Origin: a bacterium
GTDB taxonomy: Bacteria; Vulcanimicrobiota; JABDET01
Assembly: GCA_021800275.1 (NCBI GenBank)
Contig: JAJYZB010000001.1
Location: forward strand, 1-64,000
Direction of reading: 5' to 3'
Length of the DNA stretch: 64,000 bases
Below the pieces are notes generated by a model, which saw only the letters and a program-made list of their open reading frames with translations, searched no databases and was not told the DNA's origin. A program made the position numbers and the translations under genes. Shown in pieces: positions 25,373-59,083 of this stretch (positions are counted from its first letter, which is position 1; each line of letters begins with the position of its first letter).

Positions 25373-25651
25373 GGTGATATGGTTCGGAGAGAAAACGCAA
25401 AATCTTTTTTCTCCTTGAGGCGATGTAATTCCCATAGATACAAAATCTGATAGATGGAAAACTACTGTTCAGCAGCAACCTGCCCCTTGAGTCACTCCCA
25501 AAACTGACAGCTTTCTGCATCCTCCGCATTAAGTTTTATAAAAATAAAAGAGGGTTTTTTCTTGATGAAAACGGCTTGAAGCCCATAAAAATCCCCTGTA
25601 CTTTTGACACTCTTTTGACAAGGGTGTGTTAGACTTGAAAAAAGGTTGATT
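25222..25651. repeat. long direct repeat, copy 1
   Basis: About 430 bp are repeated in direct orientation at 27061-27475 with roughly 85% identity by eye. The repeat covers the 5' end of the AAA-ATPase-like fragment, the spacer with CAGCAGCAACCTGCCCC, the CTGACAGCTTTCTGCAT segment and the start of the leader element. A shorter part from CTGACAGC onward recurs at 31072. The unit looks like a divergent intergenic module carried along by duplication. Confidence 0.85.
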
Positions 25652-25690
25652 TTAACCTTTAAATCTGATAGAATGAGGAGGAAAGGAACA
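25604..25690 (+). promoter_or_regulatory. leader element copy R1 (promoter-like box plus two stem-loops)
   Basis: The element starts TTGACACTCTTTTG and is followed by CAAGGGTGTGTTAGAC. TTGACA with a 17-base spacer to TGTTAG could be a sigma70 promoter. ACACTC pairs with GGGTGT (one G-T pair, 9-base loop). AAAGGTTG pairs with TAACCTTT around a four-base loop. It ends with the GAGGAGG ribosome site of the next gene. Six copies occur in the window, at 25604, 27435, 28084, 29635, 31172 and 40488. Confidence 0.65.
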
Positions 25691-26356
25691 ATGATGTTGA
25701 ACCCTTTTAAAATTTATGAAAATCTAAGACAAACTTTTGGGGATGAACCTGCCAAAGCGCTGACTGGAGTCCTGGGGCAGATGTATGAAGATTTAACTAA
25801 TGTTGTGACAAAAGTCGAGTTTAATGAATTGAAAGAGATTGTCAAAGTTTTAGCTCAAAAAGTGGAAGAACTGGCTGAAGCCCAAAAACGAACTGAAGAA
25901 ACGGTAAGAGAACTTGCGTGGGGGATAGATGACCTGAGAAAACAAGTGGGAGGTCTGTCAGCAGATGTTGGGTATAGCATTGAAGATGACTGTATTCCAT
26001 ATATAGAACAGTTTGCCCTCAATCAGTATGGAGCCGTCATTTCTGTGGTCGATAGACGATATCTAGAATATCCAAATGGAAAAAGCGATGAAATCAATCT
26101 TTATCTCGAAGGTGAACTAAAAGGAGAAAAAATTTACATGATTGGGGAATCGAAGTCAAAGCCAGGAAAAAAAGATTTTGACCGATTTAATGCTGTGCTG
26201 AAGCGCTTCAAGGCTCATGTTAAGGGGAATGTTAAAGGATTTATGATTGGGTATCACTTTCCACTAGAAGTAGAGCAGTATGCAAAATCCGTTTATCCTG
26301 ACATTGATCGGTTCAAAACTTTTGAGATCAGAAGGACTGCTGAAAGAGCATCATAA
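25691..26356 (+). CDS. coiled-coil protein with PD-(D/E)XK nuclease-like domain (DUF3782-like)
   Basis: Protein of 221 aa. An N-terminal helical part ([24 protein letters not shown]) is followed by a coiled coil with the 14-residue unit [13 protein letters not shown] (about residues 57-71). The C-terminal half is alpha/beta with a PD-(D/E)XK-like set: acidic pair near 98-100, Asp133-Glu134 in KSDEINLYLE, and the ExK-type Glu153-Ser-Lys155 in MIGESKS. Similar proteins are annotated DUF3782 in other genomes; their function is not known, and active-site residues alone do not prove cleavage. ATG 25691 has GAGGAGG nine bases upstream. An in-frame extension into the leader lacks a ribosome site. 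A close paralogue with a longer coil lies at 31259. Confidence 0.78.
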   Translation: MMLNPFKIYENLRQTFGDEPAKALTGVLGQMYEDLTNVVTKVEFNELKEIVKVLAQKVEELAEAQKRTEETVRELAWGIDDLRKQVGGLSADVGYSIEDDCIPYIEQFALNQYGAVISVVDRRYLEYPNGKSDEINLYLEGELKGEKIYMIGESKSKPGKKDFDRFNAVLKRFKAHVKGNVKGFMIGYHFPLEVEQYAKSVYPDIDRFKTFEIRRTAERAS

Positions 26357-29894: not shown

Positions 29895-30374
29895 ATGCCA
29901 GACAGCAGTGGAAAGAATGCTCTAATAATAAAAAAAACAGAAGATTTTTTAAAAAAAAACGCCGATCGCTGCAATTTGGAAATGGCTTTTTTATTTGGTT
30001 CCAGGACAACTCCTTTTTCAAGGAGAGATTCAGACATAGATATCGGAGTAGTATTCAGCAGCAGTATTGAGACTGATTCTGCATCAACCTTGTCTGACGA
30101 TGCTGTCTTTGCTAACATCATGGATATTTCACTTGATTTGTTAAAATTACTCAACCTGGAAGTCAATATTGTGCCAGTGTATCCCGATTTTCGAAAGCCT
30201 ATGTTGTACTATAATATAATTGTATTAGGCAAGCCCCTCTTTATTAAGAATTTTGAAAAATACATTGCCTTAAGAAATGAAGCTGTTTATCAGATGGAAG
30301 ACTTCAGCATATTTGGCGAAAGGTGGAAAAGAGATATTGCCCAAAAAAGACTGGACGAATTGTTGAATGCCTGA
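29895..30374 (+). CDS. mntA: MntA-type nucleotidyltransferase antitoxin
   Basis: Minimal nucleotidyltransferase of 159 aa. The polymerase-beta-like core reads FLFGSRTTPFSRRDSDIDIGVV with the Gly-Ser and the two catalytic aspartates, and the tail after VLGKPLF is typical for MntA. MntA antitoxins neutralise the HepT partner by adding AMP units to a tyrosine of its RX4HXY motif. The gene overlaps hepT by eight bases, which supports a functional pair. It starts about 15 bp after the coiled-coil remnant. Confidence 0.9.
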   Translation: MPDSSGKNALIIKKTEDFLKKNADRCNLEMAFLFGSRTTPFSRRDSDIDIGVVFSSSIETDSASTLSDDAVFANIMDISLDLLKLLNLEVNIVPVYPDFRKPMLYYNIIVLGKPLFIKNFEKYIALRNEAVYQMEDFSIFGERWKRDIAQKRLDELLNA

Positions 30375-30804
30375 ATTCGAATATGCAAAAGGCAGAATTG
30401 CCGAAACAATCGGGTTCATTCTTGAAGAAATAAAAGAGTTCGAACTTGATTACAGCGCTAAAACATGGCAAGATTATCAAGCTGATAAAAAGCTTCAAAA
30501 GTTGGTAGATCGAACCATTGAGAATATATTGACCGCATTCATAGAGTTATGCGGAACAATTGTCACGATAAAAGGCATTCAAGCTGAAAATTATGGTGAT
30601 GTTGTAAAAAAATGCGCAAAATTTTATCATTTTAGTGAATCACAGCAAAATGATTTAGCAAAACTGGCAGTCCAGAGAAATAGGCTCGCTCATCGTTATT
30701 TAGATTTCCGCTGGCAAGCAGCAAAAACATTTATCCAGCAGAAAGATTTAATGCTCCAGCTGCTCAATTTAATATTTGAAGGAGAAAAAAAGTTAAATAA
30801 ATAG
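30367..30804 (+). CDS. hepT: HepT-type HEPN RNase toxin (DUF86)
   Basis: All-helical HEPN-family protein of 145 aa. The catalytic RX4HXY motif is intact as RNRLAHRY near residues 114-121. HEPN toxins of this kind cleave RNA, for example tRNA ends, and are silenced by the adjacent MntA. The start overlaps the mntA stop. The family blocks IENILTAFIELC and YGDVVKKCAKFY are as expected. The pair looks functional, unlike much of its surroundings. Confidence 0.9.
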   Translation: MPEFEYAKGRIAETIGFILEEIKEFELDYSAKTWQDYQADKKLQKLVDRTIENILTAFIELCGTIVTIKGIQAENYGDVVKKCAKFYHFSESQQNDLAKLAVQRNRLAHRYLDFRWQAAKTFIQQKDLMLQLLNLIFEGEKKLNK

Positions 30805-31071: not shown

Positions 31072-31258
31072 GCTGACAGCTTTCTGCATCCTCTGCATTA
31101 AGTTTTTTAAAAATAAAAGAGTATTTTTTCTTGATGGAAACGGCTTAAATCCCATAAAAATCCCTGTATTTTTGACACTCTTTTGCCAAGGGTGTGTTAG
31201 ACTTGAAAAAAGGTTGATCTTAACCTTTAAATCTGATAGAATGAGGAGGAAAGGAAGA
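31072..31258 (+). promoter_or_regulatory. leader element copy R3 with upstream extension
   Basis: The copy starts with CTGACAGCTTTCTGCAT, shared with the long repeats at 25222 and 27061, and continues to the TTGACACTCTTTTG box at 31172, stem-loop two (AAAGGTTG-ATCT-TAACCTTT) and the GAGGAGG ribosome site of the next gene. Its left end abuts the truncated istA. Confidence 0.65.
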
Positions 31259-32113
31259 ATGATGCTGAACCCATTTAAAATTTATGAAAACTTAAAACAA
31301 ACTTTTGGAGAAGAACCAGCCAAAGCGCTGACTGGAGTCCTGGGGCAGATGTATGAGGAACTGGCTAATGTTGTAACAAAAGTTGAATTTAATGAATTAA
31401 AAGGAGTGGTCAAGGAGCTGGCTGAAGCTCAGAAACGAACAGAGCTGAAAGTAGAAGAACTGGCTGAAGCTCAAAAGCGAACAGAAGAAAGAGTTGGCCG
31501 GTTAGAAGAAGTGGTCAAGGAGCTGGCTGAAGCCCAGAAGCGAACAGAGCTGAAAGTAGAAGAACTGGCTGAAGCCCAGAAGCGAACAGAAGAAAGAGTT
31601 GGCCGGTTAGAAGAAGTGGTCAAGGAGCTGGCTGAAGCTCAGAAACGAACTGAGGAAACCGTAAGAAGTCTTGTGTGGGGGATAGACGATGTTAGAAAGC
31701 AGCTGGGAGGTCTGTCTGCTGCTGTCGGACACGGCATTGAAGATAAATATCTTCCTTTGATGAAGCCGTTTGCTCTTAATCAGTATGGAGCTCAAATCTC
31801 GACTGTTCAGAGGAAATTTATTCGTTATCCGAATGGGAAAAAAGATGAAGTGAATCTTTATTTAGAAGGGGAATTAAAGGGAGAAAAAATTTATATTATT
31901 GGGGAAGCAAAAAGTCAGCCAGGGAAGAAAGATGTGGAGCGATTTCATGAGGTGCTGAATCGTTTAAGGAATTATTTTAAGGCTGAAGTGAAAGGGTTTA
32001 TGATTGGATATCTTTTTGATCCAGAAGTAGAGGATTATATAAAAGAAGAATATCCTGAGATTGACTTCTTTAACACTTATGAAATAGAAGAAATTGCAGA
32101 AAGAACATCGTAA
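31259..32113 (+). CDS. coiled-coil protein with PD-(D/E)XK nuclease-like domain, long-coil paralogue
   Basis: Protein of 284 aa, a close paralogue of 25691-26356. The N-terminal 45 residues and the C-terminal nuclease-like domain align well, including the Asp-Glu in [10 protein letters not shown] and ExK-type EAK in [12 protein letters not shown]. The central coil is expanded: a 35-residue unit with [16 protein letters not shown] is present twice in tandem plus a third partial copy. The 14-residue half-unit [14 protein letters not shown] gives a long parallel coiled coil. ATG 31259 follows GAGGAGG nine bases upstream. In this copy the ExK reads EAK, closer to the canonical motif than the ESK of the other copy. 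Function unknown. Confidence 0.78.
31406..31660 (+). repeat. in-frame 105-bp tandem repeat in the coiled-coil gene
   Basis: Two full 105-bp units (31406-31510 and 31511-31615) are nearly identical, and a third begins at 31616 and runs for about 45 bp. Each unit encodes 35 residues of coil. The related gene at 25691 lacks the expansion, so unit number changes between paralogues. Confidence 0.9.
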
Positions 32114-32234: not shown

Positions 32235-33547
32235 ATGAACAATCTTGATAAAGATCCATTAAAAAAAGAGACTCGAATCGCAGTGGTTGGATTAGGGTAT
32301 GTCGGATTTCCTCTTGCTGCTGCCTTTGATCAGGCTGGATTTTCAGTGATTGGTTATGACCATGACCCAACCCGAATTCAGGAACTTGAGAAAGGAAAAG
32401 ATAGAACAGGAGAATACCCTCCTGAAATTTTAAAACAGCTGCAGATTCGCTTTACCACAGACCCTTCACTTTTAAAACAAGCCAATTTTATTATTGTTAC
32501 AGTTCCAACCCCAGTAGATCAAGCCAATCGCCCTGATTTGACACTCCTGCGAAAAGCTTCTCAAACCATCGGAAAGAACCTCTCGGAAAATACCATTGTG
32601 GTTTTTGAATCAACCGTTTATCCCGGAGTTACAGAAGAGATCTGCGTTCCGATCTTAGAGGAAGCATCAGGCTTTAAATCAGGGGCGCAGTTTAAAGTTG
32701 GATATTCCCCTGAACGGATAAATCCAGGGGACAGAGAACATACCCTGGATAAAGTCATCAAAGTCGTCTCAGGAATGGATCCAGAGTCCCTTGAAAAAAT
32801 TGTTGAGACTTATGGAGCCATTTGTAAAGCTGGAGTCTGGAAAACGCCAGACATTAAAACGGCTGAAGCAGCGAAAGTCATTGAAAACATTCAAAGAGAT
32901 CTCAATATTGCCCTGATGAACGAATTAGCAGTCCTTTTTAATAAAGTTAATTAAACACCAAAGATGTCTTAGACGCAGCCTGCACCAAATGGAATTTCCA
33001 GCGCTTTACTCCAGGGCTGGTTGGAGGACACCGCATTGGAGTTGACCCGTATTACTTAACCCATCTGGCTGAAAAAGTGGGACACCACTCCCAGGTCATC
33101 TTAGCCGGAAGAAGAGTCAATGACACCATGTATGCGTATGTTTCAAAACAAGTGATCCTTGCCCTGGCAAAAACAGGAAAAACACTCAATAAAAGCAGAG
33201 TGTTAGTGATGGGAGTAACCTTTAAAGAAAATGTTCCTGACACCCGAAATTCGAAAGTCCTGCAGATCATCCAGGAACTCCGAAAGTATGGGATTGAAGT
33301 TCATGCCTGCGACCCGTATGTGGAACACGAAAAAATTCTCTCCAGATTCTCTGCTACTCCAGCCAGTTGGCCCCTGGATGGAATTTTGTATGATGCTGTC
33401 GTGATTGCTGTTCCCCACAAAGAATTTAAAGCCCTTCCTGCCAGCCGAATCAAAAAGATGTTAAACCACCCTGGGGCTGTGGTGGATTTGAAGTGGGTGT
33501 ATAAGAAAGAAGACTTTCAGCCTGATGTCGTGTATGAGGGGCTGTAA
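32235..33547 (+). pseudogene. nucleotide-sugar dehydrogenase, frameshifted and missing its catalytic cysteine
   Basis: The 5' part (240 codons) has the Rossmann start [17 protein letters not shown] and the [16 protein letters not shown] and [10 protein letters not shown] blocks of UDP-GlcNAc/UDP-ManNAc dehydrogenases (WbpA/TviB group). Near 32950 a one-base loss leads to a stop, and the remaining frame resumes at TKDVLDAACTKWNF. In that frame the active-site block reads GGHRIGVDPYYLTH, where the family has GGHC; TGC to CGC explains it. The C-terminal UDP-binding domain follows to 33547. Two independent lesions make a sequencing error less likely as the sole cause. The enzyme would oxidise a UDP-N-acetylhexosamine to the uronate. 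Confidence 0.88.
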
Positions 33548-34567: not shown

Positions 34568-34611
34568 CCCCCTCTTTTTTCCCCTAGCCCTCCTTCCTAA
34601 TTCAACTCAAT
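34568..34611. repeat. inverted repeat arm (partner 39463-39508)
   Basis: A pyrimidine-rich 44-bp stretch (CCCCCTCTTTTTTCC to AATTCAACTCAAT) matches the reverse complement of 39463-39508 apart from a few mismatches and small gaps. The two arms bracket the block with IS remnants and the AAA+ operon. Confidence 0.75.
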
Positions 34612-35427: not shown

Positions 35428-36144
35428 TTGTTTGAGGAAGAGCTTCGGGAAAAAACGGAACGCAGTGTGAAAACGAAAATTCAGAAAGCCAAATTCCCTT
35501 TCGTGAAAACCCTGGAACAATTTGATTTTTCTTTCCAGCCCAACTTAAACGAAAAAGAAGTGCTTCGACTGTCTTCTCTCACTTTTCTTGAGCAGGGAGA
35601 GAACCTCATTTTCTTAGGTCCCCCAGGGGTGGGAAAAACACATTTGGCTGCTGCTTTTGGAGCCAAAGCCTGCCAGGCAAGATACCGCGTTTTGTTCACC
35701 ACCATGGAAGCGCTGCTCGAAGACCTTCTGCTTTCGGTTCGAGAAGGAACCATTCATTCCAAACTATTATCGTATTCAAGACTTGACCTTTTGATTTTGG
35801 ATGAATTAGGATATACTCCCATTCCTAGAGAACAGGCTCATCTTTTGTTTCGTCTGGTCTGTTCTCGGTATGAAAAAGGGTCTCTCATTATCACCAGCAA
35901 TTACAATTTTGAAGACTGGGGAAAAATCTTTGAGGATTCAGCCGCTGCCAGCGCCATTGTGGATCGGCTGGTGCATCATGCGAATCTTTTTTTCATCAAT
36001 GGGTCCAGTTACCGTTTAAAGAACAAATTAAAGAAAGGAAGTTCAATTTCTCTGGAAGAGGGGAAAAAGGAAAGAAAGGAGGAGCCAGAAGGAAAAAACG
36101 ACGCTGCAGGAAGCCGCAGGAAATCGGTTTTAAGAGTGGGATGA
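35428..36144 (+). CDS. istB: IstB-like ATPase of IS21 family
   Basis: ATPase of about 238 aa that helps IstA during IS21 transposition. Walker A is LGPPGVGKTHLAAAFG, Walker B is DLLILDELGYTP, and the sensor block SLIITSNYNFEDWGKIF is intact. The frame is open further upstream (SSLSYEEYLALLFEEEL), but no ATG is present, so the true start is lost or depends on re-initiation from istA; TTG 35428 is the first possible start codon. The C-terminal 30 residues are rich in Lys, Glu and Arg. It is probably part of a dead element because istA is truncated. Confidence 0.8.
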   Translation: MFEEELREKTERSVKTKIQKAKFPFVKTLEQFDFSFQPNLNEKEVLRLSSLTFLEQGENLIFLGPPGVGKTHLAAAFGAKACQARYRVLFTTMEALLEDLLLSVREGTIHSKLLSYSRLDLLILDELGYTPIPREQAHLLFRLVCSRYEKGSLIITSNYNFEDWGKIFEDSAAASAIVDRLVHHANLFFINGSSYRLKNKLKKGSSISLEEGKKERKEEPEGKNDAAGSRRKSVLRVG

Positions 36145-36560
36145 CCGGGATAAGAGACCTGGACAAAAGGAAGATTTTCCTTCGTTTTCTTTAAATCCGA
36201 AACGTTTAAGGAAATCAAATTCAACGCATCAGGGACCCATGATTTTCTAAAACTCAACCTGAAATATGAAGTTGAGAAATGACAGTAAATTTTGCTCAAA
36301 AAAGGAAACAGGAGGTGAGATCAAAAAATGAGGTTAACAGTGATTCTCTCTCTTCTTAAAAAAGAAACAAAAAATGAATTATAAAAAGAAGGAAAACTAA
36401 GAGACAAAATCAAGAAAAAAGGGGAGTCAGTTTTAGATGATCGTTAGGGGTCAATTCTCGATGATCGTTTACAGAAGCAGGCTAACGTAGTCATGAGGAT
36501 TGAGAGAAGACGCCGTTGGAAAGCCTAGGAGAAGTGTTCTTTTGGAAAGGGCCAGACTTG

Positions 36561-36583
36561 ATGGGCAACAACAGGTTGCCCAT
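36561..36583 (-). terminator. stem-loop directly after the AAA+ gene
   Basis: A perfect 9-bp inverted repeat (ATGGGCAAC-AACAG-GTTGCCCAT) starts one base after the AAA+ gene stop codon. There is no T-run after it on the minus strand, so it is a possible transcript-end or stabilising hairpin, not a classic intrinsic terminator. Confidence 0.45.
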
Positions 36584-36584
36584 G

Positions 36585-39005
36585 CTAGATCCAGCCATTT
36601 CTCTTAATCATGTCCTTGATGAGTTTTCCCATATGATCTTCTCGAACGATGTCCCGTAGATTTTTTCGTGTTTCTCTAGTGACTTGTTTAATCAGTTGGG
36701 TCTCCTCAGTGCTAAATCCAAGCTTTGATTCGTCAACAAGATAAACGAGAAGAAGAAATTCCTCGTAAGGCTTTTCTCCTGATGCCTTGAGTCTTTTTTC
36801 GTAGCTAAGCAAGTTTATAGTGAATCGTGTTTGTTCGGCTTCCCGGAAGAGAAAAGCAATAAAATCCTTCTTATCTTCATAACTGCCAAATGCGGAAGAG
36901 GCGGCTTTTGCTCGCCACTGATGAATGCTACTATCCACGATCCCTTTTAATTCTCCCCATGTTGCGAGGACGGAATTTTTCACTACTGCCAGTAGCTCAG
37001 AAGCGCTGATCTCAAACCCAAGCTTCTTTTCTTTTAAAATCTTCAAAAACAAGCGTTCTCGCTGATGACTATCGGGTGGCAGGACAAGGAGATGTGCGTC
37101 AATTCTGCCAGGGCGTGTTATGGCACGATCAATTCTCTCGAAATAATTCGTGGCTATTAGGAAGATGATGTTTTTTTTATCTCGCAAGCTGGTTAATTTT
37201 GTCAGCATACTTGGGGTCATCAGCTGGAAAATGTCGCTTTGAGTTCTGTAATTTTCAGAATCTCGATCCAAAATCAGTCGGTCAATTTCGTCGAAAAGAA
37301 TGATGGTACTGTCCTGCTCTTCAAGAGCTTGAAAAATATCCTTGGCTCTTGCCTCCACTCCTGCCTCACCTAAAAGAGCAAAATCACTAGGGCTGACAGA
37401 TATATATTTCCACCCCAGGGCCTCTGAGATTTTCTTACCGATGCTTGTTTTCCCAGTTCCCGGCGGTCCATAGAGTAACATAGAATAACGTCTGTCGTCG
37501 GCGTTTCCTGATTCAAGGGGCTCAAGGAATTCCTTCCGGATTCTCCGATAAACCCGATAGCGAACATCTTCCTTCAAGGATTTTAGAGGCTCATTTTCCT
37601 CCCAATCCTTGAGCCAGTATGCAGATGGTTTGAGTGCGGATGACTGCTGGTGTGTTTGGCTCGATGGGGAGGCTTCATTTTGCTTCGTTTCTCTCCGAAT
37701 TTTTTCGACTATCTTTTTGTCCATGGATGGTGGAGCGACAGCCAAAAGTTTACTTTGTTCCAGCAAGGACCGGGCGAAGTATCTTCTTAAGGCGATCTCG
37801 TAGCCCCCCAAAAAAATTAAGCGGTGGGCGGTATGATAGAGGTGAATTCTGTCAAAGAGACCGACATGTTCATCGCTCCATCCCGCGAATTCAATTTCTT
37901 CCTCTTCAATCTTCTCACTTGTTTTCCCTTTGTTCATTTGTTGTATTGACAATTCAGCGTAGATATTAAACAGATCCACGTACTTTCCAAAATATTCCAT
38001 GCCCGGCGTTTCTTGATCAAGTGCGTAGCACACATGAAGTAATGAAATTGCGGCCTCTTCAGAAGCGGGCAGATAAAGATAAGATACAGAACTCACAACC
38101 ATTGGGATAGTGGAAATATGAAGAGAAGATAGATTCGAAGCTCTTTGTTTGATGGTTTCAAATACTCTATCAACGATCGTAGATGGAACACCAGATTTCT
38201 CACATTCGAGGAGGCCGTCGAGCGCAAAAATCAATTCCGCGAGATCGAAAGGTGTACCAGGGCTACGGGCATAAGATAAATGCACATGCAACCGCTCTGT
38301 TAAGTATTGCTTCACAAGCTCGAGGTTTATTTCTACCGGGACCCCACATTTTTCTAGCACATTGCGAAGCCGGACGATCCTGGATAGGACATAGGGATGG
38401 GGGCGTGGGTTTTGCCCTCCTGGGATAATAACGTCTCCATCAAAACAAAGGGCTTTGTCTGCGTCACGCGGGTACGACGTAGCATTCTTGACAACTTCTT
38501 TTGCTTTTTCTTGGAGCTTCAATGAAAATTTGTCAAAATCTCCTTCGTCAATTTTTGGAAATGGAATCAACCCTTTCTTTATGGCAAGAAAGACTCTTAG
38601 TAGTGCCAGAATTGTAAAGGGGTCATCGTATCCAAACGCAGGCGAAAAGGTAAGAAATCCCTTCTGTTTCTTGTCCATAAGTTCCGATGCTTTAATTAGA
38701 CTTTTGACACAGCAGTGCACAAATTCCGGAAATTTATCCAATGCTCGTGTCTTTTTCATTCCACTGGGGTAGTACGTTGTGGGGTCGACTGCCCCACTGG
38801 TAATGCCTAGTGCATACATGACGGCCGCTTGTGTGGCAAATGAATAAAAGCCTGTTGGAGGGGATAGCGGTTTACCGTGGATGAGCTCCATAGGAAAGTT
38901 CAAAAGATAAGCGCGATTATTCAAGAGGCATTGAAACATATCCAATACCTTGGTTTGCGCTTTTTCGATTTTCTCGATATCGGTTTTGATAGTGTGGTAG
39001 TCCAT
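36585..39005 (-). CDS. AAA+ ATPase with large novel N-terminal helical region
   Basis: Protein of about 806 aa. Residues 1-460 are mostly helical with repeated short blocks such as GFYSFATQAAVMYALG, FVHCCVKSLIKASEL and DDPFTILALLRVFLAI that could form an alpha/alpha toroid-like or helical-repeat domain; I do not recognise it. A charged linker (about 440-475) leads to a classic AAA ATPase domain: Walker A YGPPGTGKTS, Walker B IILFDEIDRL, sensor-1 IATNYFERID, and arginine fingers in RPGRID. A helical tail follows. It should be an oligomeric remodelling ATPase. No protease, nuclease or membrane domain is visible. It lies 44 bp after a 98-aa gene in a two-gene operon with its own promoter, between IS remnants, and its codon use looks less AT-rich than its neighbours. 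An in-frame TTG nine bases upstream is a possible alternative start. Function unknown. Confidence 0.85.
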   Translation of the reverse strand: MDYHTIKTDIEKIEKAQTKVLDMFQCLLNNRAYLLNFPMELIHGKPLSPPTGFYSFATQAAVMYALGITSGAVDPTTYYPSGMKKTRALDKFPEFVHCCVKSLIKASELMDKKQKGFLTFSPAFGYDDPFTILALLRVFLAIKKGLIPFPKIDEGDFDKFSLKLQEKAKEVVKNATSYPRDADKALCFDGDVIIPGGQNPRPHPYVLSRIVRLRNVLEKCGVPVEINLELVKQYLTERLHVHLSYARSPGTPFDLAELIFALDGLLECEKSGVPSTIVDRVFETIKQRASNLSSLHISTIPMVVSSVSYLYLPASEEAAISLLHVCYALDQETPGMEYFGKYVDLFNIYAELSIQQMNKGKTSEKIEEEEIEFAGWSDEHVGLFDRIHLYHTAHRLIFLGGYEIALRRYFARSLLEQSKLLAVAPPSMDKKIVEKIRRETKQNEASPSSQTHQQSSALKPSAYWLKDWEENEPLKSLKEDVRYRVYRRIRKEFLEPLESGNADDRRYSMLLYGPPGTGKTSIGKKISEALGWKYISVSPSDFALLGEAGVEARAKDIFQALEEQDSTIILFDEIDRLILDRDSENYRTQSDIFQLMTPSMLTKLTSLRDKKNIIFLIATNYFERIDRAITRPGRIDAHLLVLPPDSHQRERLFLKILKEKKLGFEISASELLAVVKNSVLATWGELKGIVDSSIHQWRAKAASSAFGSYEDKKDFIAFLFREAEQTRFTINLLSYEKRLKASGEKPYEEFLLLVYLVDESKLGFSTEETQLIKQVTRETRKNLRDIVREDHMGKLIKDMIKRNGWI

Positions 39006-39049
39006 GCTTATCAATTGAGAAAATTGATTGCCGAAGAAACTTTCGTCAA

Positions 39050-39346
39050 TTATTCATCGTTTCTCTTTTCCGAAAGATAAATATCGTCTTCTTCCTTTTG
39101 TAGAAGGGTTTCGCCTTTTAGTATTCTGTCGAAATCTACCTTTTTGAGCTTTATCAAACATTTTCGCTTTTCTCTTAATAGCGAGACCAGGGGGGATTTG
39201 TCAGTACATAAAATCTGAACTCTTACTTTGGGTTTTTCTTCGCATTTTGTTCTTAACATCACCAACACGATGATGCTTTTTCCTGTCATTCCTTCATACT
39301 CGCCCTCGAACCAGAATGCTAGCTCTTCATTTCTCTCATTACCCAT
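39050..39346 (-). CDS. small protein of unknown function, partner of the AAA+ ATPase
   Basis: Protein of 98 aa with no family I recognise. It starts MGNERNEELAFWFEGEYEG, has a hydrophobic strand (KSIIVLVMLRTK), a second strand (KVRVQILCTDKSPLV) and a charged C-terminal helix ending in EKRNDE, which suggests a small soluble alpha/beta fold. ATG 39346 has GGAGGTG five bases upstream, a strong site. An in-frame upstream extension of 15 residues lacks one. It is the first gene of the operon; 44 bp separate its stop from the AAA+ start. It could be a substrate, adaptor or regulator for the ATPase. Confidence 0.75.
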   Translation of the reverse strand: MGNERNEELAFWFEGEYEGMTGKSIIVLVMLRTKCEEKPKVRVQILCTDKSPLVSLLREKRKCLIKLKKVDFDRILKGETLLQKEEDDIYLSEKRNDE

Positions 39347-39375
39347 CTTACACCTCCGATTGAAAATGAATTGCG

Positions 39376-39405
39376 AGTATAGCCCCTCCACGCGGTTTGC
39401 GGCAA
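39376..39405 (-). promoter_or_regulatory. sigma70-type promoter of the AAA+ operon
   Basis: On the minus strand TTGCCG (39400-39405) and TATACT (39376-39381) are 18 bases apart. Transcription would start about 39369, leaving a short leader of roughly 20 bases before the ribosome site at 39350-39357. Confidence 0.5.
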
Positions 39406-39431
39406 CTTTCTACGACTTGGCCGATTTTCCT

Positions 39432-39578
39432 CCTTGGCAGACTCGTCTGTTATTCCCAAGCGATTGAGCTGAATTAGGGAGGAGGGGCTGGGGAGGAAAA
39501 AAGAGGGGGGGATGACATAATCGCGTGGTAAAAGGGGTGACATTTTTGCGTGGGAATTACACCTTGGCAGACTCGTCT
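39432..39578. repeat. cluster of IS-end-like repeats
   Basis: The 17-bp word CCTTGGCAGACTCGTCT occurs at 39432-39448 and 39562-39578. Between them lie the inverted repeat arm 39463-39508 and two related 23-bp units at 39508-39530 and 39533-39555 (18 of 23 positions equal; both contain TGACAT and GCGTGG). Such repeated units are typical of transposase-binding ends. I cannot name the element; the nearest transposase pieces are ISNCY-like at 34746 and rve-type at 39864. Confidence 0.65.
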
Positions 39579-39601
39579 TCCCATATCTGAAAGCGTCTGT
39601 C

Positions 39602-39860
39602 AAGGGGTACTGTAAAATTTTTTCTTTTTTTTCATTTTTTCCAACACAGGAGTTGGGGTTTGGGGAGCATCTTTTTTCCCCTTATCCTTTCTTTTCTCCT
39701 GGTGGATATTCATTTTTTTCTTAATTTCTCTCTTCTTCCATCTCCTTTTACTTCATCTATTCTATCCCTCCAAGTTCCGCCGGCCTCCTTTTGTGTCAAT
39801 ATAGAATTGGACAGATTTTGGATCTAGATGCAGGGATAATAGAAAGAGGAGGGCGGAGAA
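39602..39860. other. non-coding pyrimidine-rich stretch
   Basis: I see no gene here. The + strand is rich in T and C runs (TTTTTTCTTTTTTTTC, CTTTTCTCCTGG, CTCTCTTCTTCC) with no open frame above 60 codons. It lies between the IS-end repeats and the truncated transposase and is probably decayed mobile-element DNA. Confidence 0.5.
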
Positions 39861-39863
39861 GGG

Positions 39864-40154
39864 AGCAATCAGGGACAGTTGACAATTCATGCGGATCGAG
39901 GTCCTGCCATGAGGTCAAAAGCGGTGGCTTTCTTGTTAGCTGACCTGGGGATAACCAAAAGTCACAGCCGCCCTTATGTGTCCAATGACAATCCTTTTTC
40001 AGAAAGTCAGTTTAAAACCTTGAAGTATCGTCCTGAATTTCCAGAGCGGTTTGTGAAAAAATTGCCAGAACCACCCTTAGTTCCCCAAGCGGTTTGGATC
40101 AATCCTCCAATCTTAAACAACCAGGAGGGGGTGAAAAATAACCGATCTTTTTAA
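39864..40154 (+). pseudogene. C-terminal fragment of an rve/DDE integrase-type transposase
   Basis: Residues QLTIHADRGPAMRSKAVAF, LGITKSHSRPYVSNDNPFSE and FKTLKYRPEFPERF match the last part of the DDE core, with the second Asp in HADRG and the Glu in NPFSE. The C-terminal VPQAVWINPP is the usual family end, but about 60 residues between PERF and this end are missing. The 5' half is absent. About 15 bp downstream, TGTCTCAAACTTATTGACAG resembles an IS right end of such elements. Confidence 0.8.
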
Positions 40155-40189
40155 ACAAAAAAATGTCTCAAACTTATTGACAGGTTCCG

Positions 40190-40487
40190 TTCTGCCATCA
40201 GAAAATTGTTTAAGTTATTCAGCTGCAGCTCGAATATCCTCGATAAGTTTTTTCGATTCAAGCCGCATACAGTGTTATTCTTGAAGCTTGTAGATCATTC
40301 ATGATATTTTTTCTCTCTATTCCTCTTTGTTCCTTTTACGGCTCTTACCTCTCTATTTCTATTTTATTCAAAAACAGAACCTAAGTCTCCACCCATTCTA
40401 TAGATTTGCTCAGCGTAAAATTTATCTTTGCAAAAAATATTTTTTTCGCATGAAATATGAATAAAACCTGTAAAATCCCCTGTATTT
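40190..40487. other. intergenic region without recognisable gene
   Basis: This AT-rich stretch between the transposase fragment and leader copy R6 has no supported open frame. Immediately before the leader, the words CCTGTAAAATCCCCTGTATTT resemble the upstream flank of the other leader copies only over about 15 bp. Confidence 0.45.
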
Positions 40488-40573: not shown

Positions 40574-40969
40574 ATGGCATTAAAACACGAAAGTTTAGAA
40601 ATGAGGGTGAGTAAAGTGGAAGGCGAAGTTGAAGGGTTAAAAAGTTTAACGGTTCAGATCTTTCACGAGCTGAGAAGCCTGAGAGAAGAAATGAATCAGC
40701 GGTTTGCCCTGTTAGAGCAGAAACTGATGGAAATGGGGCTGAAATTCGAACAGAAGTTTGTTGAGTTAGAAACAAAATTTCAGCAGAAATTTGACAAGCT
40801 TGATGAGAAATTCGATAAAATAGACCAGAAGTTTGCTGCGTTAGAGACAAAAATGGATCAGAAATTTGATCATTTAGAACGGAAGCTGGATCAGAAAACA
40901 GATCGCGTGTTCTGGTGGGTGATCAGCCTTTTAACAGCCCTCTGCATGGCTCTTTTCTTTAAACGCTGA
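40574..40969 (+). CDS. tail-anchored coiled-coil protein
   Basis: Protein of 131 aa. Residues 1-105 form a continuous coiled coil, first irregular (MRVSKVEGEVEGLKSLTVQIFHELRSLREEMNQRF), then built of 7- and 11-residue repeats (EQKFVELETKFQQKFD, EKFDKIDQKFAALETKMDQKFD). A single C-terminal membrane helix (VFWWVISLLTALCMALFF) ends in Lys-Arg, so the protein should be anchored by its tail in the inner membrane with the coil in the cytosol. It is the full-length member of a family with two deleted copies at 28126 and 29673 and a 5' scrap at 41031. It shares its leader with the nuclease-like coiled-coil genes. Function unknown; related small proteins are common as hypotheticals. Confidence 0.75.
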   Translation: MALKHESLEMRVSKVEGEVEGLKSLTVQIFHELRSLREEMNQRFALLEQKLMEMGLKFEQKFVELETKFQQKFDKLDEKFDKIDQKFAALETKMDQKFDHLERKLDQKTDRVFWWVISLLTALCMALFFKR

Positions 40970-58609: not shown

Positions 58610-59083
58610 TTAATGATTTCTTTTATCAATAAGGGCAGCAAAAATCTGATCCAGTCTCATGTTTAACTGAGTCAAACTGTTTTCAAATTTCATGTTTAAC
58701 TGAGTCAAGCTGTTTTCAAGTTTGTCAAATCTCTGATTGGTCTCAGATTTAAATTCTTGAAATTCATGTCTCATGCCCACTTCGAACTTTTCAATTCGCT
58801 GGTTAACTCCTGTTTCGAACTTCTCAATTCGCTGATTAATTCCTGTTTCGAACTTCTCAATTCGTTCTTCAAGTTTCTCAATTCGCTGGTTAACTCCTGT
58901 TTCAAACTTCTCGATTCGTTCTTCTAGTTTCTCAATTCGCTGATTTGTTTCAAGTTTGTGTTCTTTTAATTCATCTTTAATCTCTTTTGTACGCTGATCA
59001 ATAAAGTCATACACCAGCTCAAGGGTTACTTTTTTAGCAAACCCTACGACTCGTCCCGTAATTCCACTGGTGATTTTTTCCAT
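58610..59083 (-). CDS. coiled-coil protein
   Basis: Protein of 157 aa, almost all coiled coil. After a short N-terminal helix (MEKITSGITGRVVGFAKKVTLELVYDFID) come repeated 11- to 14-residue units NQRIEKLEERIEKFETG (four times with small changes), then EFKSETNQRFDKLEN and a duplicated NSLTQLNM block. No membrane anchor or nuclease domain is present. It stands before the dehydrogenase fragment as the longer coiled-coil gene stands before the dehydrogenase at 31-33 kb. It does not carry the TTGACACTC leader. Function unknown. Confidence 0.72.
   Translation of the reverse strand: MEKITSGITGRVVGFAKKVTLELVYDFIDQRTKEIKDELKEHKLETNQRIEKLEERIEKFETGVNQRIEKLEERIEKFETGINQRIEKFETGVNQRIEKFEVGMRHEFQEFKSETNQRFDKLENSLTQLNMKFENSLTQLNMRLDQIFAALIDKRNH

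Follow-up and report, generated by a model that had tools for sequence, protein, structure and literature searches.

A probably horizontally acquired, partner-less AAA+ ATPase related to an undescribed phage- and plasmid-borne AAA+/DUF4406 cassette

Comparative analysis of the window (i.e. the whole 64,000-nucleotide stretch of DNA considered here) suggests that its AAA+ ATPase is most likely a horizontally acquired, partner-less member of a rare, undescribed cassette of phages and plasmids, in which a motor-like ATPase of this family (hereafter A) is followed by a DUF4406-containing protein (hereafter B). The small gene ahead of it, orf98, appears to be no true partner but a local gene unconnected with it. 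The novelty is the ATPase family, not the window locus: Pfam, NCBIfam and PADLOC 2023 include no full-length model for the cassette ATPase, and the papers searched contain no description of an AAA+/DUF4406 cassette. The locus and its surroundings comprise the following features:

35428–36144, plus strand: IstB-type ATPase of an IS21-family element (Pfam IstB_IS21, E 2.9e-70)
36423–36473, no strand assigned: IS21 terminal repeats at the element end (direct repeat D7; 36444–36473 recurs in the genome)
36585–39005, minus strand: AAA+ ATPase ORF of 806 aa (from the ORF list, the Pfam AAA match and full-length relatives)
36966–37487, minus strand: AAA core, residues 507–680 (motif inspection against controls)
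37568–39005, minus strand: N-terminal domain, about residues 1–480, common to the whole ATPase family
39050–39346, minus strand: orf98, 98 aa, ATG at 39346 and stop at 39050–39052 (no family; homologue in the sister species G002)
39347–39438, minus strand: leader/promoter region of orf98 with GGAGGTG, conserved in G002
39449–39556, no strand assigned: probable IS terminal fragment between 22-nt direct repeats at 39427–39448 and 39557–39578 (D6)
39879–40154, plus strand: integrase-core (rve) transposase fragment (Pfam rve, E 1.5e-4, below the Pfam cut-off)

The first-pass annotation had described a two-gene operon with IS ends on both sides, and this layout is present: orf98 (39346 to 39050) and the AAA+ ORF (39005 to 36585) are co-oriented on the minus strand and are flanked by the end of an IS21-type element and by an IS fragment with an integrase core. 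The IS21 element ends near 36473, 111 bp past the ATPase stop, and positions 36444–36473 recur at two further places in the genome (96–97%). Beyond orf98, positions 40040–40201 recur on contig C4 at 94%, and the stretch 39449–39556, assigned by inspection as a probable IS terminal fragment, has an inverted match (I1) to 34568–34611. The strong ribosome site ascribed to the pair was also recovered (GGAGGTG at 39351–39357, ahead of orf98). The claim of odd base and codon use stands for codon use, in which the two genes take the two most atypical ranks among the 39 window genes, but fails for the base composition of the ATPase, whose GC of 0.439 (vs about 0.41) is near average. The 'own promoter' attributed to the pair did not hold up: the four promoter-like sites in 36000–40000 are no better than chance (5.4 ± 2.7 in shuffles), and the candidate directly upstream of orf98 (39405–39376) scores 9/12.

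Several other features of the window were recorded. An MNT/HepT-type toxin–antitoxin pair (29895–30804; Pfam Polbeta, E 1.1e-10; HepT-like, E 7e-10) lies immediately outside the IS-rich stretch, and so also beyond the 31–40 kb in which the first-pass annotation had proposed the two genes as the only clearly intact non-IS cargo. A UDP-sugar dehydrogenase-like gene in an exopolysaccharide locus (32235–33547) is, by inspection, apparently split over two frames. A methanotrophic host, guessed from gene content, gained no support: PF02461 gave no match, although it gave none in the control genomes either. Coiled-coil proteins with near-identical internal repeats are encoded at 25646–26356, 31172–32113, 40574–40969 and 58610–59083, and those at 25646 and 31172 resemble each other in the C-terminal domain that follows the repeats.

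The sole confident Pfam match region of the ATPase is the AAA match at residues 509–640 (E 1.1e-24). Walker A (GPPGTGKT, 513), Walker B (LFDEID, 570), the sensor (ATNY, 618) and the arginine finger region (RAITRPGR, 627) are all in place, i.e. the window protein has the Walker A/B, sensor 1 and arginine-finger motifs of classic AAA unfoldases. By contrast, the aromatic-hydrophobic-glycine pore loop 1 is missing: the window ATPase has LLG where FtsH and PAN-like controls have FVG/YIG, and its relatives have glycine-rich sequence at this position. Protein remodelling by threading is weakened by the lack of this motif, and the pattern argues for a putative switch or assembly ATPase rather than a threading unfoldase. 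In the NCBIfam and PADLOC searches the AAA core resembles FtsH, PAN, Cdc48 and IetA, with NCBIfam scores far under the cut-offs, and among proteins of solved structure the nearest in sequence are remodellers of the Cdc48/p97 type.

The reading frame continues upstream without a stop to about 39053, directly against the orf98 stop, and neither start candidate (ATG 39005 or TTG 39014) has a clear ribosome site; the start codon and 5′ integrity are therefore uncertain. A frameshift at the 5′ end was considered, since upstream of ATG 39005 frame 0 shows similarity to the relatives, but it is not adopted because the alignment of this part is ambiguous.

The large N-terminal domain of no family, already remarked on by the first-pass annotation, is confirmed: its roughly 480 residues have no significant match in Pfam, nor in the PDB by sequence. 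It is mostly helical in a low-confidence model (AF2, four sequences, pLDDT 55), and Foldseek with the ATPase model recovers essentially the AAA core only (TM about 0.12); for these reasons no fold is claimed. An alpha/alpha-toroid, suspected from the look of the motifs, gained support from no tool. A distant match to the domain (hhalign E 2.6e-5) was found in the ATPase of a Parabacteroides plasmid. The operon there (L010, 3067–7772) encodes ThyX with a long N-terminal extension, the related AAA+ ATPase, and HIT and MazG-like proteins.

Across 388 related genomes, the N-domain profile matched the window genome only and none of the other 387, sister species G002 included; a search for the ATPase in 149 same-phylum genomes likewise returned the window copy alone. 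This absence from the other searched genomes indicates that the window ATPase is not a housekeeping gene.

Five full-length relatives, N-terminal domain included, share 30–33% identity with the window ATPase. Two are on rhizobial plasmids (Rhizobium beringeri pRlX4, U8P75_35225-35215, and S. meliloti KH35c pSymA) and were recovered by tblastn against plasmids; three are on IMG/VR phage contigs (L011, L012 and L013) and were recovered with a profile of three sequences. The family aligns over nearly its full length, with invariant motifs in the N-domain as well as in the AAA core. In L011 the cassette lies on the opposite strand between portal (E 9e-79) and terminase genes, in L012 near lambda-J-like tail genes and in L013 near a phage primase; these neighbours place the three IMG/VR cassettes in genuine phage DNA. 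Such places in prophages often house accessory cargo, often defence. The window ATPase has diverged from the other members as far as L011 has, and may represent a subfamily whose partner is a different one.

Gene B lies directly downstream of the ATPase in all five relatives, with a spacing of −8 to +18 nt, although this 5/5 linkage comes from few independent loci because six family members are known in total. B consists of a DUF4406 domain and about 450 uncharacterised residues; it is encoded by two ORFs in R. beringeri and is fused in the other four relatives. DUF4406 was detected in three of the four fused proteins (best E 5.9e-6) and also in L008. This domain resembles nucleoside deoxyribosyltransferases, and in B the likeness appears here as a marginal PHROG match. 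The C-terminal region has motifs that we take to resemble those of PPDK/PEP-synthase enzymes (EWVHDG...QLHRG, GLTSHIADVIRKA). It has no Pfam match as a PEP-utiliser and gave two weak matches to the host's own PPDK-type proteins; because the hhalign E of 0.03 compares with 0.19–0.81 in shuffled controls, the PPDK/PEP-synthase-like assignment is offered as a suggestion.

The C-terminal region of B also occurs on other rhizobial plasmids, there without the rest of the cassette. Its neighbours include adenylosuccinate synthetase, a dGTPase annotated as anti-phage, QueC-like and RelA/SpoT genes and restriction genes, and these surroundings (L025–L028) are a candidate defence neighbourhood. In these four loci the region stands either with adenylosuccinate synthetase and an uncharacterised 229-aa protein or with QueC/dGTPase/restriction genes. 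B itself gave no tblastn match in the window, and none in the window's genome with a single distant query that was run without a positive control. With the cassette incomplete in the window, orphan is the most fitting label for the ATPase, which is placed for transcription behind a local gene.

That local gene, orf98, could not be placed by the first-pass annotation, and it indeed matches no family in Pfam, NCBIfam, PADLOC or PHROG and nothing in the plasmids, phages and viral contigs searched. Its sole clear homologue is in G002, a member of the same genus, with 61% identity over residues 10–89. The window and G002 are similar in DNA sequence (75%) between 39438 and 39081, a stretch that takes in the leader and the gene and stops near the orf98 end, and about 29 nt through the orf98 ATG are identical. 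In G002 the homologue is followed by an IS630-type transposase in an unrelated locus, and no ATPase lies beside it. The AMP-ligase gene that adjoins it in G002 is on a different contig in the window genome, which indicates that orf98 itself has moved. A dN/dS of about 0.7 between the two species points to weak constraint, and a structure predicted from the single sequence was uninformative (pLDDT 47). The G002 island next to the homologue (L030, 9157–13238, contig C10) comprises the IS630-type transposase, a family-less membrane protein, an IS21 fragment and a DUF1828/DUF6978 gene group.

These distributions speak against the central proposal of the first-pass annotation, that orf98 and the ATPase form a two-gene system: orf98 occurs without the ATPase in G002, and all five ATPase relatives lack an orf98-like ORF beside them and have a different partner. 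The two genes are not found together elsewhere, the outcome that the annotation itself had named as refuting the pair. The pair could still be genuine if B had been replaced in this lineage by orf98, in the role of small regulator, adaptor or antitoxin. The genes are co-oriented, about 44 nt separate the orf98 stop from ATG 39005, a single strong ribosome site is shared, codon use is similarly atypical, and the open frame upstream of the ATPase reaches right up to the region of the orf98 stop. Given that the ATPase family is missing throughout G002, that none of the five A homologues has an orf98-like neighbour and that orf98 is weakly constrained, we consider this reading unlikely.

A functional stand-alone ATPase, with a general remodelling or stress role for which B is dispensable, would account for the intact Walker, sensor and arginine-finger motifs and for the Cdc48/p97-type remodellers being the nearest solved relatives. 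It sits poorly with the lack of an aromatic pore loop 1, with the retention of B in every relative and with the absence of the gene from the other 387 genomes searched, sister species included, and it has a similarly low probability. We think even less of a functionless, decaying pseudogene-in-progress. The missing partner, the IS on both sides and the uncertain 5′ end without a ribosome site would suit it, but an 806-codon frame is open with motifs conserved throughout, and random decay would break it soon. For the orphan reading, too, the retention of all catalytic motifs and of the long open frame is a point against, as it suggests either recent loss or retained function. The most far-reaching possibility is that the cassette provides phages and plasmids with a new kind of immunity, its ATPase using a novel sensor domain to control an effector that fuses nucleotide-processing and dikinase-like parts, and that the window variant has swapped this effector for orf98; this, too, is improbable.

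As a whole, the evidence is best explained, more probably than not, by A being a cassette subunit that was orphaned here, with orf98 joined to it by IS-driven rearrangement. The cassette is carried by phages and plasmids, and most likely serves them as a weapon against phages or other elements. The N-domain of A may sense an infection signal, upon which the AAA+ ring would change state with ATP hydrolysis instead of threading protein; this switch might activate or assemble B, which in turn could attack or alter a nucleotide pool. In the window, B may have been lost through IS, and IS-driven rearrangement would have joined A to the local orf98, the source of the promoter and ribosome site. Orphaned in this way, the window ATPase is most likely either inactive or employed in a borrowed role.

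For the cassette, an anti-phage role acting on nucleotides is plausible from its context; none of the ATPase relatives is a tested defence gene, and the PADLOC matches of the window ATPase cover the AAA core only. The broader suggestion of undescribed defence or protein remodelling therefore survives in part: the family is uncharacterised, mobile, two-gene in its relatives and defence-like in distribution, but the proposed pair is not upheld and remodelling by threading is weakened. That a mobile and possibly defensive ATPase system awaits description is, as a broader proposal, supported by the relatives with moderate confidence.

What the locus leads to is a compact cassette on lambda-type phages and rhizobial plasmids that would combine an AAA+ switch without a threading loop with nucleotide-type enzymes. 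If the cassette is defensive, attack on nucleotides under the control of an ATPase, as in RADAR, would be extended to another, new class of enzymes. In itself the window copy has modest value, but it suggests how insertion sequences can strand such an ATPase.

Comparison with known systems places the window ATPase apart from each of them. In PADLOC it matches best the IetA models (E 3.6e-16) of IetAS, which combines the AAA+ ATPase IetA with a subtilisin-like protease. However, the match is confined to residues 432–681, mostly the AAA region, leaving the N-terminal domain unmatched; the NCBIfam IteA score is 44.2 bits against a cut-off of 510; and the neighbours are orf98 and IS genes, with no subtilase beside the ATPase. 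RADAR comprises the AAA+ ATPase RdrA and the adenosine deaminase RdrB, as described in PMC9994260, and the likeness to RADAR is a works-like analogy only, in that an AAA+ ATPase stands together with an enzyme that acts on nucleotides, and not membership. The partner in the ATPase relatives is DUF4406/PPDK-like rather than a deaminase, no RdrA or RdrB is among the PADLOC matches at E ≤ 1, and no deaminase gene adjoins the window ATPase. Cdc48/p97, FtsH and PAN share the AAA core and motifs with the window ATPase, which differs in lacking an aromatic pore loop 1 and a protease domain and in having a single AAA domain and another N-domain. The closest likeness is to the AAA+/DUF4406 cassette, with 30–33% identity over the full-length ATPase and its N-terminal domain; the relatives have the DUF4406 partner directly downstream and no orf98, and the window has the reverse.
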